38,743 nt of DNA from Burkholderiaceae bacterium (GTDB taxonomy: Bacteria; Pseudomonadota; Gammaproteobacteria; Burkholderiales; Burkholderiaceae): NCBI GenBank assembly GCA_947371415.1, contig CANBPJ010000002.1:1-38743 (forward strand). The letters are read 5' to 3'. Positions 1 through 38,741 of this stretch are shown here, piece by piece (position 1 is the stretch's first letter; each line of letters begins with the position of its first letter). The notes below the pieces were generated by a model that had not been told where the DNA came from, searched no databases, and saw only the letters and a list, made by a program, of their open reading frames with translations. Both the position numbers and the translations under genes were made by a program.

Positions 1-695
<695 letters not shown>

Positions 696-1226: not shown

Positions 1227-1295
1227 TTTAGCCCCGTGAGTTTAATGTGTGCACCGCAATAGGTCAAATGTTTTGGGGTCATTTTTAGCAATGTT

Positions 1296-2183
1296 TTAAG
1301 CCTCGACACCCAGTTTTTTCAACAGAGAATCCAGCTCGTCAAATTGGCTAAAGCGGATTCTAAGCTCGCCACCCTTGCCTTTGAACTTAAATTCCGAGCT
1401 TAAGCCAATCAAATCGGCGATTTCTTGGGTTAAACGGCGCATATCGGGATCGCGGCTTGGAGCCCCCACCTCTGCATTGGTCTTGGCTTTTTTATCGCCA
1501 ATTTGCCCTCCAGCACGCGCCAAGGCAGTTGACATTCTTTCAGCCTCTCTAACCGAGAGGCCTTGAGCGGCAATTCTTTGCGCTAAAGCTACCTGACTTG
1601 CCCCAGGCAGAGGGAGCAGCGCTCGCGCATGACCCATATCTATATCACCAGCCAATAGCATGGCTTGTACTGGTTTTGCCAGCTGGCCTAAGCGCAGTAA
1701 ATTACTAATGGCGCTACGTGATTTGCCAACCGCTTTGGCGGCCTGCTCATGAGTAAAACCAAACTCCTCAATCAACCTTGCCAAGCCTTGTGATTCTTCC
1801 AGCGGATTCAAGTCCTCACGCTGCATATTCTCAACCAAGGCCATTGCTGCAGCAGCTTGATCATCGGCACCAGAAACTAAAACGGGCACCTCTTTTAACC
1901 CGGCCAAGGTTGCCGCACGAAAGCGTCGTTCGCCCGCAATAATTTCGTACTTGCCGGGGCTAACCAAGCGCACTAGTAGTGGCTGCATCACACCTTGCTC
2001 GCGAATACTTTCAGCCAACTCTTGTAGTGCACCCGCTTCCATTTTTTGGCGTGGCTGGTATTTTCCGGCCTGCAATGCAGATAACGGCAGACGATTGATA
2101 TCAGCGGTGGATTCTTTTTGTGCCTTGTCACCAAGCAACGCTTCTAGCCCGCGACCTAAACCTTTTTTCTTTATTGCAACCAT
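1296..2183 (-). CDS. parB: chromosome partitioning protein ParB
   Basis: KKGLGRGLEALLGD start, PRQKMEAGALQELAESIREQGVMQPLLVR, GERRFRAATLAGL and a helix-turn-helix region typical of ParB/Spo0J. Confidence 0.97.
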   Translation of the reverse strand: MVAIKKKGLGRGLEALLGDKAQKESTADINRLPLSALQAGKYQPRQKMEAGALQELAESIREQGVMQPLLVRLVSPGKYEIIAGERRFRAATLAGLKEVPVLVSGADDQAAAAMALVENMQREDLNPLEESQGLARLIEEFGFTHEQAAKAVGKSRSAISNLLRLGQLAKPVQAMLLAGDIDMGHARALLPLPGASQVALAQRIAAQGLSVREAERMSTALARAGGQIGDKKAKTNAEVGAPSRDPDMRRLTQEIADLIGLSSEFKFKGKGGELRIRFSQFDELDSLLKKLGVEA

Positions 2184-2204
2184 AATATTTTTTATTCCTA
2201 GGTT

Positions 2205-2975
2205 TTACATTTGCGCAATACGTTCAATCATTTCAGCGCCAAACTCCAAATAAGCTTTAGCGCCACGCGACGATCTATCGAAAGCCACCCCAGGAAGCCC
2301 ATAGGACGGGGCTTCTGCCAGACGGACATTGCGGGGAATGATGCTCTTAAATACTTTATCGCCAAAGTGCTCAAGCAATTGATCTGAGACTTGTTGTTGC
2401 AATGTCATGCGCGGGTCAAACATTACGCGCAACAAACCAATGATCACTAGGTCTGGATTTAAGTTGGCATGCACCTGCTTAATGGTGTTTACTAAATCCG
2501 ACAAACCTTCCAATGCAAAGTACTCACACTGCATTGGAACGATCACGCCATTGGCTGCACACAATCCGTTGAGCGTCAGCAGAGATAGCGCAGGAGGGCA
2601 GTCAATCAAAATAAAATCATAGTCATTGGCAACAATCGCAAGCGCATCCTTCAACCTTTGCTCTCGTGAATCCAAATCTACCAATTCAATTTCTGCGCCC
2701 GCTAAATCGCGATTTGCCGGGAGCACATCATAAGAAGAGCTCTCGCAACGAACCGCAGATTCTTTCACCGATGCAAGACCAATTAAGACTTGATACACCG
2801 TGTTATTCAGATCGGACTTCTCAATTCCAGATCCCATAGTCGCGTTACCCTGCGGGTCTAAATCGACCAATAAAACACGCTGTTGATGTCCAGCCAAACC
2901 CGCGGCCAAGTTGACTGCTGTAGTTGTTTTACCCACCCCACCTTTTTGATTAGCAATACAAAATATTTTGGCCAT
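2205..2975 (-). CDS. parA: chromosome partitioning ATPase ParA/Soj
   Basis: MAKIFCIANQKGGVGKTTTAVNLAAGLA deviant Walker A; DYDFILIDCPPALSLLT. Confidence 0.97.
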   Translation of the reverse strand: MAKIFCIANQKGGVGKTTTAVNLAAGLAGHQQRVLLVDLDPQGNATMGSGIEKSDLNNTVYQVLIGLASVKESAVRCESSSYDVLPANRDLAGAEIELVDLDSREQRLKDALAIVANDYDFILIDCPPALSLLTLNGLCAANGVIVPMQCEYFALEGLSDLVNTIKQVHANLNPDLVIIGLLRVMFDPRMTLQQQVSDQLLEHFGDKVFKSIIPRNVRLAEAPSYGLPGVAFDRSSRGAKAYLEFGAEMIERIAQM

Positions 2976-2999
2976 AGTTTTTCTTAAAAAGGTCGTGCT

Positions 3000-3662
3000 T
3001 TAAAGGGGTAATTTTCTCACGGGGGATAAGACCAACAGGCGGCGCTCCACCGCTAAATTTGGTATCCGCAAAGGCTCATCGGCCACTAATCGCCAATCAT
3101 CCATACAAACATCCTGTAACTCTTCATCTGCACGCCTAGCCTTCATCGCAAATACCAAGCCATCGGGCTTTAGAAGCGGGAGAGAAAGCTCCAGAAAATG
3201 AGCAAGATTAGTAAACGCTCTAGAAATCACCGCATCAAACTGCCCTGGCTGAGTTTTTGCAACTGTCTCTACGCGCTCACTTAGCACCTGAATATTCTTT
3301 AAACCCAGCTTTCCGCGAACGTGCTGTAAAAATGCTGTCTTTTTGCGAATAGCCTCAATCAACGTTAAATTCCAGGCTGGCTGCAAAATCGCCATAGGGA
3401 TGGCTGGTAAGCCGCCGCCTGAACCGAGGTCAGCAATGCTTGGGCTAGTGCCTGACAAAAATTGACGCATAATTGGTAAAACTGTAATAGAATCAATGAG
3501 ATGCAGTCGAACTGAGTTTTGCTCACCCTCAATTGCAGTCAAATTATGCACCCGATTCCAGCGACCCATTTCCTGTAAAAATAGCTCTAAATTAGCGATA
3601 TTTTCCGGACTTAGATTTAATCCTAAATCTTCAATTCCCAAAGAGACCAACTCATTACTCAT
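3000..3662 (-). CDS. rsmG: 16S rRNA (guanine-N7) methyltransferase RsmG
   Basis: [32 protein letters not shown] motifs; adjacent to mnmG. Confidence 0.96.
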
Positions 3663-33798: not shown

Positions 33799-36003
33799 AT
33801 GGAAATTAAAGTTAACTTTCTCGATAAGCTGCGTCTTGAGGCTAAGTTCGACGACTTCACGGTGATTGCTGACCAGCCTATCCGATATAAAGGCGATGGC
33901 TCGGCTCCGGGCCCATTTGATTACTTCCTAGCTTCATCAGCTTTGTGCGCAGCTTATTTTGTGAAGTTGTACTGCGACACTCGCAATATTTCCACTGAAA
34001 ATATTCGCCTCTCACAAAACAATATTGTTGATCCAGAAAACCGGTATCAGCAGATTTTCAAGATTCAGGTTGAGTTGCCAGAGGATATTTCTGCTAATGA
34101 CCGCCAAGGGATATTGCGCTCTATCGAACGTTGTACGGTTAAGAAGGTAGTGCAAGCTGGGCCAGAGTTTGTTATCGAAGAGGTGCGCAATCTAGATGCA
34201 GATGCGCAGACCTTATTGGCCTTGAAACCCGCTTCTGACGCTAGTACCTATATTGCCGGCAAGGATCTGCCGCTCGAGCAAACCATTGCCAATATGTCTG
34301 GCGTGTTGGCGAACCTAGGAATTAAGATTGAAATCGCCTCGTGGCGCAACATCATTCCCAACGTCTGGTCCCTACATATTCGTGATGCGCATTCACCGAT
34401 GTGTTTTACCAATGGGAAGGGGTCAACAAAGGAAAGTGCGTTGGCGTCAGCTTTGGGTGAGTATATTGAGCGCCTGAGTAATAACCATTTTTATGCCGGT
34501 GCATACTGGGGTGAAGATATCGCCAATGGAGCATTTGTGCATTACCCGAATGAGCGCTGGTTTAAGCCGGATGCTCAGGATGCTTTACCCACAGAAATTC
34601 TGGATGAGTACTGTCTCAATATTTTTGATCCCGATAGCGAATTGCGCGGCTCACATTTGATTGACACCAATTCCGGTAATGCGCAGCGTGGCATCTGTTC
34701 ATTGCCGTATGTGCGACAGTCGGATGGCGACACTGTTTATTTTCCTTCCAACTTGATTGAAAACCTTTATGTCAGCAACGGCATGAGTGCTGGCAATACG
34801 CTGGCCGAAGCGCAGGTGCAATGTCTATCAGAGATTTTCGAGCGCGCAGTCAAGCGCGAAATTCTGGAAGGTGAAATCACTTTGCCGGATGTGCCGCAGG
34901 AAGTGCTCGCAAAATACCCTGGCATTCTGGAAGGTATTCGTGGACTAGAGGAGCAGGGCTTTCCAGTACTAGTAAAGGATGCATCACTAGGTGGCATCTA
35001 TCCAGTCATGTGTGTCACCTTGATGAATCCGCGAACAGGTGGCGTATTTGCATCTTTCGGTGCGCACCCAAGCCTAGAGGTGGCATTGGAGCGGAGTTTG
35101 ACAGAATTACTGCAGGGGCGCAGTTTAGAGGGTCTTAACGACTTGCCCCCGCCAACTTTTGCAAGTGAAGCGGTGACTGAGCCAAATAACTTTGTTGAGC
35201 ACTTTATTGATTCCAGCGGAATTGTGTCATGGCGCTTTTTCAGTGCAACAGCAGATTACGATTTTGTTGAGTGGGATTTCTCAGGTGATGGGGAAAACTC
35301 TAACGCTGAAGAAGCGGCAGCTTTGTTTGGCATTCTTGAGTCTATGGGCAAAGAATCCTATGTGGCAGTGTATGACCAGTTGGGCGCGATCGCATGTCGA
35401 ATCTTGGTGCCCGGCTATTCCGAGATTTATCCGATAGAAGATCTCATGTGGGACAACACAAATAAGGCCTTGTTGTTCCGCGCCGATATTTTGAATCTAC
35501 TCACATTAGATGATGCAAGTTTAGGCGCGCTGCTTGAGCGCCTAGAGAATAACGAGTTAGATGAATACGGTGATATCGCCACATTAATCGGCATCGAGTT
35601 TGACGAGAATACGCCTTGGGGTCAGCTAACCGTTCTCGAATTGAAGTTGCTGATTCATCTTGCCCGAAAGCAATTTGATGAGGCTAATGAGTTGACGGCC
35701 GCCTTTCTTCAATATAACGACAACACCGTAGAGCGTAGATTGTTTTATCAGGCCTTAAGTACGGCGCTAGAGATTGAGTTGGGTGACGACTTGGAGCTTG
35801 ATGACTACATGGTTAATTTACGCCGTATGTTTGGCAATGAGCGCATGGATGCAGTAATAGGGTCAGTAGATGGCAGCGTGCGTTTCTACGGCTTGACTCC
35901 AACCAGCATCAAACTGGAGGGCCTCGATAGACACCACCGCTTAATCGATAGTTATAAAAAATTGCACGCAGCTCGGGCCAAATCTATGGCGACCAATAAC
36001 TAG
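33799..36003 (+). CDS. OsmC-like / YcaO-domain fusion protein
   Basis: N-terminal OsmC-like segment (GPFDYFLASSALCAAYFVKLYC ... IERCTVKKVV) fused to YcaO motifs GKGSTKESALASALGEYIERLS and NGMSAGNTLAEAQVQCLSEIFERAVK. Confidence 0.88.
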   Translation: MEIKVNFLDKLRLEAKFDDFTVIADQPIRYKGDGSAPGPFDYFLASSALCAAYFVKLYCDTRNISTENIRLSQNNIVDPENRYQQIFKIQVELPEDISANDRQGILRSIERCTVKKVVQAGPEFVIEEVRNLDADAQTLLALKPASDASTYIAGKDLPLEQTIANMSGVLANLGIKIEIASWRNIIPNVWSLHIRDAHSPMCFTNGKGSTKESALASALGEYIERLSNNHFYAGAYWGEDIANGAFVHYPNERWFKPDAQDALPTEILDEYCLNIFDPDSELRGSHLIDTNSGNAQRGICSLPYVRQSDGDTVYFPSNLIENLYVSNGMSAGNTLAEAQVQCLSEIFERAVKREILEGEITLPDVPQEVLAKYPGILEGIRGLEEQGFPVLVKDASLGGIYPVMCVTLMNPRTGGVFASFGAHPSLEVALERSLTELLQGRSLEGLNDLPPPTFASEAVTEPNNFVEHFIDSSGIVSWRFFSATADYDFVEWDFSGDGENSNAEEAAALFGILESMGKESYVAVYDQLGAIACRILVPGYSEIYPIEDLMWDNTNKALLFRADILNLLTLDDASLGALLERLENNELDEYGDIATLIGIEFDENTPWGQLTVLELKLLIHLARKQFDEANELTAAFLQYNDNTVERRLFYQALSTALEIELGDDLELDDYMVNLRRMFGNERMDAVIGSVDGSVRFYGLTPTSIKLEGLDRHHRLIDSYKKLHAARAKSMATNN

Positions 36004-37117: not shown

Positions 37118-37193
37118 GGCCTGGTAGCTCAGTCGGTAGAGCAGAGGATTGAAAATCCTTGTGTCGGTGGTTCGATTCCGCCCCGGGCCACCA
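37118..37193 (+). tRNA. tRNA-Phe (anticodon GAA)
   Basis: 76-nt cloverleaf: acceptor GGCCTGG/CCGGGCC, D-stem GCTC/GAGC, anticodon stem GAGGA/TCCTT with loop TTGAAAA, T-loop TTCGATT, encoded CCA. Confidence 0.97.
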
Positions 37194-37226
37194 AGAAACA
37201 CCAAAACCACCTTCGGGTGGTTTTTT
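37165..37226 (+). repeat. direct repeat copy 1 (tRNA-Phe 3' part plus terminator)
   Basis: 60/62 identity with 37463-37524, offset 298 bp. Confidence 0.95.
37203..37226 (+). terminator. intrinsic terminator after tRNA-Phe
   Basis: AAAACCACC-TTCG-GGTGGTTTTTT hairpin with T-tract. Confidence 0.9.
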
Positions 37227-37462
37227 GTTTTGCACTTGCCCGCTAAGGACTGTCGAAAAAATATAGGGAATGGAGATTTGGCGATTGCTAGCTGCAAGTT
37301 GGAAAGCAGAAAAACTTCTCACTTATCGTTTCCTTTAATGTCTGCTTGACCATTCCTTAATTCACTTTAAAGGTTTTATTTCACAAGAAATGTTCTGTAG
37401 CATACATAGTGCTTTATTAGCCGGGTCTGAGGGCAGCCTGGGGGGGGTGAGGATCGTTTAGC

Positions 37463-37524
37463 CGGTGATTCGATTCCGCCCCGGGCCACCAAGAAATACC
37501 AAAACCACCTTCGGGTGGTTTTTT
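37463..37524 (+). repeat. direct repeat copy 2 (tRNA-Phe 3' fragment plus terminator; candidate att remnant)
   Basis: CGGTGATTCGATTCCGCCCCGGGCCACCAAGAAATACCAAAACCACCTTCGGGTGGTTTTTT; differs from copy 1 at 37468 and 37497; no tRNA 5' half upstream. Confidence 0.93.
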
Positions 37525-37640: not shown

Positions 37641-38741
37641 ATGTCGGCCATACTATCCTCGGAAAAGAAGTCCTTTCTTAGATATTGGGCGATTGGCATT
37701 TCCATTACATATGTCTTGATCGCCATATTGGTTGTCTATATTGTCCAAGGCGAGAAGAGTGTTGCCAACAGAAATCATGCTCTTAGGATGAGCCCTGATG
37801 CAGTGGAGCCCGGAAAGACACCTCCCGATCCCCTTCCTCCTAATGTCGACTTTAAACCAGTAAATGTCGGTATCTACTTAGACGGCATAGAGAGCTTTTC
37901 AATAAAAGATTCCTACTGGACGCCAACTTTTTATATTTGGTTCCGCTGGAAGGGTGATCAGTCGCTAAACCCAGGAAAAAATTTTAGGCTTGTTGATGGA
38001 AAAATTGAACTGAAAGATCTTCAAGACAGCTATACAGCACCTGATGGCACAAACTACGAGGTTTATAAAGTTGTAGCCAGGGTTACGAAGTTCTTCAACA
38101 CGACACGAGCACCCTTAGACGACCATATGCTCAATATTTACATTGAGGATTCGGCGAATGATGTGCGGCGTATGCGTTATGTCCCTGATCCAACATCTGG
38201 CATTAGCTCTCGGGTAAAAATTTCTGGTTATGACATCACCGGAATGAGCGCAGTGGTAAAACCCCATACCTATAAAACAAGTTATGGCGATCCAAGGGCT
38301 GAAGAAGGCAGGCGGACAACCTTTAGTGAATATAACTATGGGGTGACAGTTAAGCGAAATGGCGTAGGTGTTTTTTTGAAGCTATTCATTGGACTTTACG
38401 CCGGTGTATTGCTTACCTTTTGTAGTTTTTATATTCATCCTTCTGAGACCGGATCGCGCTATGCTTTTCCATCAGCATCATACTTTGGAGTTATAGCAAA
38501 TGCCTACATGACCCACTCTTTGTTGCCCTCTTCGGGCTATTTCGGATTAGCAGATTTAGTTACCGCAATTGGCTTGTTCACCATTACTTTATGTGTAATT
38601 GCCTCACTAATTTCGGTTTATTGCTACCAGCAAAAAAAGGACCCAGACTTTTCCTTGAGGCTGGATAAGGTGTCCCTTAGATATATTGGGGCTGGATTTA
38701 TAGCGGTTAATATCCTTTTGCCTATCTGTGCCTTTTATTAA
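37641..38741 (+). CDS. divergent pentameric ligand-gated ion channel-like membrane protein
   Basis: N-terminal TM, then VNVGIYLDGIESFSIKDSYWTPTFYIWFRWKGD; Pro-loop-like FFNTTRAPLDDHMLNIYIED; C-terminal TM block with SLLPSSGYFGLADLVTAIGLFTIT and a last TM YIGAGFIAVNILLPICAF. Confidence 0.6.
   Translation: MSAILSSEKKSFLRYWAIGISITYVLIAILVVYIVQGEKSVANRNHALRMSPDAVEPGKTPPDPLPPNVDFKPVNVGIYLDGIESFSIKDSYWTPTFYIWFRWKGDQSLNPGKNFRLVDGKIELKDLQDSYTAPDGTNYEVYKVVARVTKFFNTTRAPLDDHMLNIYIEDSANDVRRMRYVPDPTSGISSRVKISGYDITGMSAVVKPHTYKTSYGDPRAEEGRRTTFSEYNYGVTVKRNGVGVFLKLFIGLYAGVLLTFCSFYIHPSETGSRYAFPSASYFGVIANAYMTHSLLPSSGYFGLADLVTAIGLFTITLCVIASLISVYCYQQKKDPDFSLRLDKVSLRYIGAGFIAVNILLPICAFY

Follow-up and report, generated by a model that had tools for sequence, protein, structure and literature searches.

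A pentameric ligand-gated ion channel subunit with an additional N-terminal hydrophobic helix, carried in a tRNA-Phe island of a Burkholderiaceae bacterium

The stretch of DNA analysed here (the window, 38,743 nucleotides of one contig of a Burkholderiaceae bacterium) ends in an open reading frame for a protein of 366 amino acids, with the position, strand and length that an earlier note on this DNA had claimed; the peptides quoted in that note are found in the reading frame. Judged by its relatives, the host is a freshwater bacterium, possibly close to Polynucleobacter. The contig terminates 2 bases past the stop codon of this gene, and an exact overlap of 149 bases continues it into a second contig of the same genome, C37. 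Upstream lies a tRNA-Phe gene, whose 3′ end together with a terminator hairpin forms a repeat of 62 bases. A second copy, 97% identical to the first, separates the tRNA from the gene (Table 1), so that both the tRNA and the repeat beside which the earlier note had placed the gene are real. A further copy follows on C37, about 40 bases past the stop, and the gene is thus flanked on both sides. Elsewhere in the window (33799-36003), a 734-amino-acid protein appears by eye to join an OsmC-like N-terminus to a YcaO-like domain.

Table 1. Features of the window around the channel gene, and loci of related MscS fusion proteins in other genomes.
Feature	Residues	Position	Strand	Basis
tRNA-Phe (gaa), island anchor		37118..37193	+	ARAGORN
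Repeat copy 1: tRNA-Phe 3′ end and terminator hairpin		37164..37225	+	blastn self-comparison, pattern search
Repeat copy 2, upstream of the channel gene		37462..37523	+	blastn self-comparison, pattern search
pLGIC subunit gene, 366 aa		37641..38741	+	ATG start; ORF call, sequence matches, model
M0, N-terminal hydrophobic helix, YWAIGISITYVLIAILVVYIV	15-35	37683..37745	+	model; presumed uncleaved
Conserved post-M0 linker, with RNHxLRMxPxxVEPGKTPPDPLP	39-71	37755..37853	+	pairwise identity among relatives
Periplasmic ligand-binding β-sandwich	72-240	37854..38360	+	model strands 72-239; alignment A1
FYIWFRWKG strand, within the β-sandwich	97-105		+	alignment A1
Pro-loop, FFNTTRAPLDDHMLNIYIED	151-170	38091..38150	+	alignment
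Loop C segment PHTYKTSYGD	208-217	38262..38291	+	alignment; loop C named by position
M1; pre-M1 Arg239 directly ahead	241-264	38361..38432	+	model, alignment
M2 pore helix and start of M2-M3 loop, 0′ Arg273 to 23′ Pro296	273-296	38457..38528	+	alignment
M3	303-330	38547..38630	+	model
M4, terminus 1 residue before the stop	335-365	38643..38735	+	model
MscS fusions, same genus		L051:139-3096(+), L052:31-3108(+), L053, L055
MscS fusions, same phylum		L090:1698-4751(-), L092:1746-4853(-), L091:1359-4769(-), L095:1366-4464(+), L096:1494-4535(+)

By sequence and predicted fold, the product of this gene is a genuine subunit of a pentameric ligand-gated ion channel (pLGIC). As a single sequence searched against the PDB with phmmer, it matches a GLIC/GlyR chimera (E 8.5e-11) and GLIC (E about 1e-5), and it matches the NCBIfam model LGIC_1 at E 2.7e-6, a match that falls well short of the curated cut-off of that model. 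The comparison with PF02931 and PF02932 had a divided outcome: Pfam returned no match for the window protein alone, even at E 10, and 13 and 11 of 22 family members, respectively, match the two models at E ≤ 1. Because the family as a group reaches the pLGIC models, we read the blank result as a limit of sensitivity. An alignment of 22 rows of family members (A1), used as a profile, covers both domains end to end, with E-values of about 1e-33 for GLIC and 5e-33 for ELIC, and a second alignment confined to the close clade (A2, the eight closest sequences) still matches the GLIC/GlyR chimera at E 6.6e-11. The AlphaFold model built with A1 (pLDDT 88.5, pTM 0.79) contains a helix at residues 7-50, strands between residues 72 and 239, and helices at residues 241-264 (in two pieces), 270-294, 303-330 and 335-365. 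In the model, a β-sandwich ligand-binding domain is thus followed by four transmembrane helices, and Foldseek ranks structures of GLIC or its chimeras first among its PDB matches (E about 1e-20). The earlier note had called the protein pLGIC-like, a claim that would have fallen with profile and fold searches that returned no pLGIC and no β-sandwich with four helices; both searches return GLIC, and the claim is borne out. A chance open reading frame is ruled out by full-length relatives at 92, 82, 65, 64 and 54% identity and by low dN/dS, and a chance resemblance to pLGICs by the E-values and the fold.

Among 85,462 species genomes scanned, 25 related loci were found. In a maximum-likelihood tree of 34 sequences, the window protein falls into a group of 15 members with a support of 100/100 and a long stem, drawn from the window’s genus, from other Pseudomonadota, and from MAGs labelled Bacteroidota and Thermodesulfobacteriota, labels that may reflect mis-binning. 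The ‘undescribed branch’ of the earlier note therefore survives as a distinct clade, and not as a new superfamily: what is new is the separate clade bearing the N-terminal helix (M0), and the pLGIC superfamily to which it belongs is already known. When the window copy is compared with the three relatives closest to it, dN/dS ranges from 0.035 to 0.08, with dS saturated in some pairs; strong purifying selection thus acts on the intact copies.

The distribution of the channel gene in its genus is sporadic. Any family match, matches to the ligand-binding domain only included, occurs in 13 of 186 genomes of the genus, and copies of the window type occur in five, of which four, the window copy among them, are open. 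In one complete genome of the genus (G103; L045, L054), a window-type copy is broken by three in-frame stops. Among 398 sampled genomes of the order, a search for the close clade found the window’s own copy as the only one of its type; phylum-wide, some family member is present in 46 of 399 sampled genomes. A phage collection contained no match to the channel gene, plasmid matches are relatives of 23-31% identity only, mainly from Azospirillum, and no second pLGIC was found in the window’s own genome (79% complete).

To describe the pore and the coupling elements we used the residue table that Jaiteh et al. compiled for the superfamily (PMC4795631). The Pro-loop proline, which is invariant in that table, and the aspartate two residues on (93%) are present as P158 and D160, and both are invariant across alignment A1. 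The aromatic residue that precedes this proline ([F/Y]PxD; F in 71% and Y in 25%, hence common and not universal) is missing, with A157 in the window protein and valine in close relatives. No cysteines flank the Pro-loop, as expected for bacteria. In the alignment, the pre-M1 arginine (94%) and the M2-M3 proline (88%) are both found, as R239 and P296, and the β9 aromatic is present as a tyrosine; the proline at M1 14′, again common and not universal (77%), aligns with a glycine, a substitution listed at 5%. Because the Pro-loop aromatic is replaced by alanine or valine and the M1 proline by glycine, coupling may differ from that in other pLGICs.

In the pore helix M2, the superfamily table lists arginine or lysine at 0′ (79%) and leucine or phenylalanine at 9′; the window protein has R273 at 0′ and phenylalanine at 9′. 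This Phe 9′ is combined with Tyr 16′ in all 15 clade members, so the unusual pore sequence reported earlier is real and extends through the clade. To call its similarity to other pores weak was an overstatement, since the 0′ arginine, the M2-M3 proline and Phe 9′ all lie inside the known pLGIC range (PMC4795631). Neither -2′ nor -1′ is acidic in the window protein or in the 11 clade members nearest to it, and 0′ is an arginine. This arrangement is closer to the pre-M2 segment of anion-type channels than to that of the cation type. From these pre-M2 residues, the pore is predicted to be more likely anion-selective or weakly selective than cation-selective.

The most distinctive element of the clade lies ahead of the ligand-binding domain. 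The 21 residues of M0 in the window protein carry no charge, and in the model they are part of the helix that spans residues 7-50. The N-terminal run without charged or strongly polar residues is 17-25 residues long in all 15 clade members, compared with 8-17 in relatives outside the clade, whose N-terminal segments mostly resemble signal peptides; the one exception among these relatives is L021, with a run of 24. The extra N-terminal helix that the earlier note had pointed out is hence a property of the whole clade. Behind M0, most clade members share the linker pattern H-x-x-R-M-x-P-x-x-x-E-x-G-K/H-T-x-P-x-P-L-P, which is less well kept in L013 and L097 and missing from L065. Among six close full-length relatives, mean pairwise identity is 75% in the linker (19 of 33 columns invariant), 70% in the ligand-binding domain, and 47% in M0, the least conserved of the helices. 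In a 2004 survey of prokaryotic pLGICs, all bacterial members start with a signal peptide (PMC549065). Because the helix is long and uncharged and the linker is conserved, we infer that M0 stays uncleaved and serves as a membrane anchor.

The repeats that flank the channel gene belong to a larger array. The tRNA-Phe 3′-end/terminator repeat recurs between many genes of C37 (L030) and of related contigs. Such arrays of cargo genes occur in many genomes of the genus, and in several of those that are complete, the copies of the repeat are clustered in one region and on one strand. Homologous channel genes are flanked by the same repeats on both sides in two loci (L005 and L006) and, more weakly, so is the broken copy of G103 (L045). 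In G030, a different pLGIC of about 25% identity also lies inside a tRNA-Phe repeat array (L032:10124-11104(-)). In G002, the channel gene is found at another site, between rlmB and tal, and no such repeat lies close by; rlmB and tal are adjacent, with no channel gene between them, in six genomes of the genus, the window’s own included. The sporadic presence of the gene and its flanking repeats support the earlier description as accessory cargo, that is, an optional single-gene cargo that mostly resides in an additive island derived from tRNA-Phe. Flexible genomic islands of this additive type, in which the 3′ end of a tRNA is repeated, are already known, for example with tRNA-Lys in Methylophilaceae (PMC10872708). 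For this reason we claim no novelty for the array, and we dropped the idea of a novel integron-like cassette system. In both cases copies of a tRNA 3′ end space the cargo genes; the array described here differs in using tRNA-Phe and, in this genome, in including the terminator hairpin in the repeat.

Our searches of the genus and the phylum also returned proteins of about 1000-1140 amino acids that match the family through the ligand-binding domain only (Table 1). They consist of an N-terminal periplasmic binding protein, a central pLGIC-type ligand-binding domain, and a C-terminal MscS mechanosensitive channel. Against the A1 profile, seven of these fusions score 33-50 bits in the middle of the protein, compared with 0 of 200 shuffled controls. 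A profile-profile comparison of three of these proteins gave a probability of 97.4, and a profile of three such domains alone found no match in the PDB. When six fusions were read with Pfam, an MscS β-domain followed the ligand domain in each, and a periplasmic binding protein domain preceded it above the Pfam cut-off in five and just below it in L051; L091 has, in addition, a cyclic-nucleotide-binding domain at its C-terminal end. A sensor domain related to that of pLGICs thus appears to be mounted on an unrelated pore. A strict search for MscS fusions across the order returned none. Fusions of periplasmic binding proteins to pLGICs are known (PMC549065), and a limited literature search found no report of the binding-protein/pLGIC-ligand-domain/MscS architecture, which is possibly more novel than the M0 channel itself.

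M0-type genes were also found next to other pLGIC genes. In G620 (L087:4415-7925(-)), a binding-protein/pLGIC gene for 775 amino acids is directly followed, on the same strand, by an M0-type gene, whose product shares 45% identity with the window protein; this arrangement points to an operon and perhaps to mixed channels. In G709 (L088), an M0-type gene and a second, divergent pLGIC are arranged tail to tail (1240-2358(+) and 2362-3375(-)).

We consider it probable that the window protein forms a homopentameric ligand-gated channel of the inner membrane, in a distinct clade in which an uncleaved M0 replaces the cleaved signal peptide. The pentamer, the ligand class, the selectivity and the path of gating are those we infer for it. 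M0 would pass from the cytoplasm to the periplasm and lead, through the conserved linker, into the usual β-sandwich ligand-binding domain. A small solute would bind at the subunit interface, where loop C (PHTYKTSYGD) would face the FYIWFRWKG strand of the neighbouring subunit. The binding signal would then be relayed via the Pro-loop/pre-M1 arginine pair to M2, which would open a pore whose lining includes Phe 9′ and Tyr 16′. Because family members associate with Peripla_BP_6-type binding proteins, there are hints that the ligands may be small organic solutes, for example amino acids. We lean slightly towards a fuller reading, namely that of a five-helix pLGIC clade (M0 plus M1-M4, which makes 25 membrane helices in a pentamer). 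In this reading, M0 and the linker would tie the ligand-binding domain at its top back to the membrane, the pore would be doubly aromatic (Phe 9′, Tyr 16′), and the gene would have spread between phyla as optional cargo.

The fate of M0 decides whether this architecture differs from that of an ordinary bacterial pLGIC, in which M0 would be a long, cleaved signal peptide and the mature subunit would retain four transmembrane helices. Several observations argue against cleavage: the uncharged run is long in 15 of 15 clade members and short in most other sequences, cleavage motifs are not conserved through the clade, and the model shows one unbroken helix that runs into the conserved linker. However, signal peptides are evident in other branches of the family, the low conservation of M0 would also fit one, and V-Q-G at (-3,-1), ahead of EKS, is a tolerable cleavage motif. 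We therefore hold a cleaved M0 to be unlikely while granting it some weight. The pore raises a separate question, as two aromatic rings, together with the loss of the M1 proline and of the Pro-loop aromatic, could instead mark a receptor or auxiliary subunit of pLGIC fold that does not conduct alone, either needing another subunit or signalling without ion flow. The M0-type gene of G620, directly downstream of the 775-amino-acid gene, and that of G709, whose neighbouring pLGIC is encoded on the other strand, fit such a role. Yet 13% of pLGICs have Phe 9′ (PMC4795631), and because no other pLGIC was found in the window’s genome (79% complete), a partner subunit is not evident there; we give this explanation little weight. 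Finally, the absence of the channel gene from most of the genus and the three in-frame stops of the G103 copy might mean that the gene is island cargo in decay and has no function in this host, which is highly improbable in view of the window copy and three other copies of the genus that are open, and of the strong purifying selection. A conducting, M0-anchored channel thus remains our preferred reading.

Structural models of nerve receptors come mainly from bacterial pLGICs. If M0 is kept, the anchored channel would add a new architecture to the superfamily and provide a natural test of the influence of an N-terminal tether on gating. With its invariant Phe 9′ and Tyr 16′, the pore offers a clean case for studies of hydrophobic gating, and the optional spread of the gene on a tRNA island bears on the open question of what pLGICs do for bacteria.

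Among known channels, GLIC, the proton-gated channel of Gloeobacter (PDB 3eam and others), is the best match in fold and sequence over both domains and has the Pro-loop, the pre-M1 arginine and the M2-M3 proline in common with the window protein, from which it differs in an overall identity of about 20%. We take GLIC to have no N-terminal membrane helix and to carry a glutamate at -2′, an isoleucine at 9′ and the M1 proline (partly PMC4795631). ELIC (PDB 2vl0) is matched by the family profile over its full length (5e-33). It presumably has no M0 either, and we take its pore and loop sequences to differ from those of the window protein. DeCLIC is likewise a prokaryotic pLGIC with an N-terminal addition (PMC9897478); its addition consists of two folded, β-rich periplasmic domains, whereas that of the window protein consists of a hydrophobic helix and a short conserved linker. 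The window protein lacks the binding-protein domain of the PBP-I/pLGIC fusions (Tasneem et al. 2004, PMC549065); it shares with them the same family of ligand-binding domain, and one such fusion gene adjoins the M0-type gene of G620.
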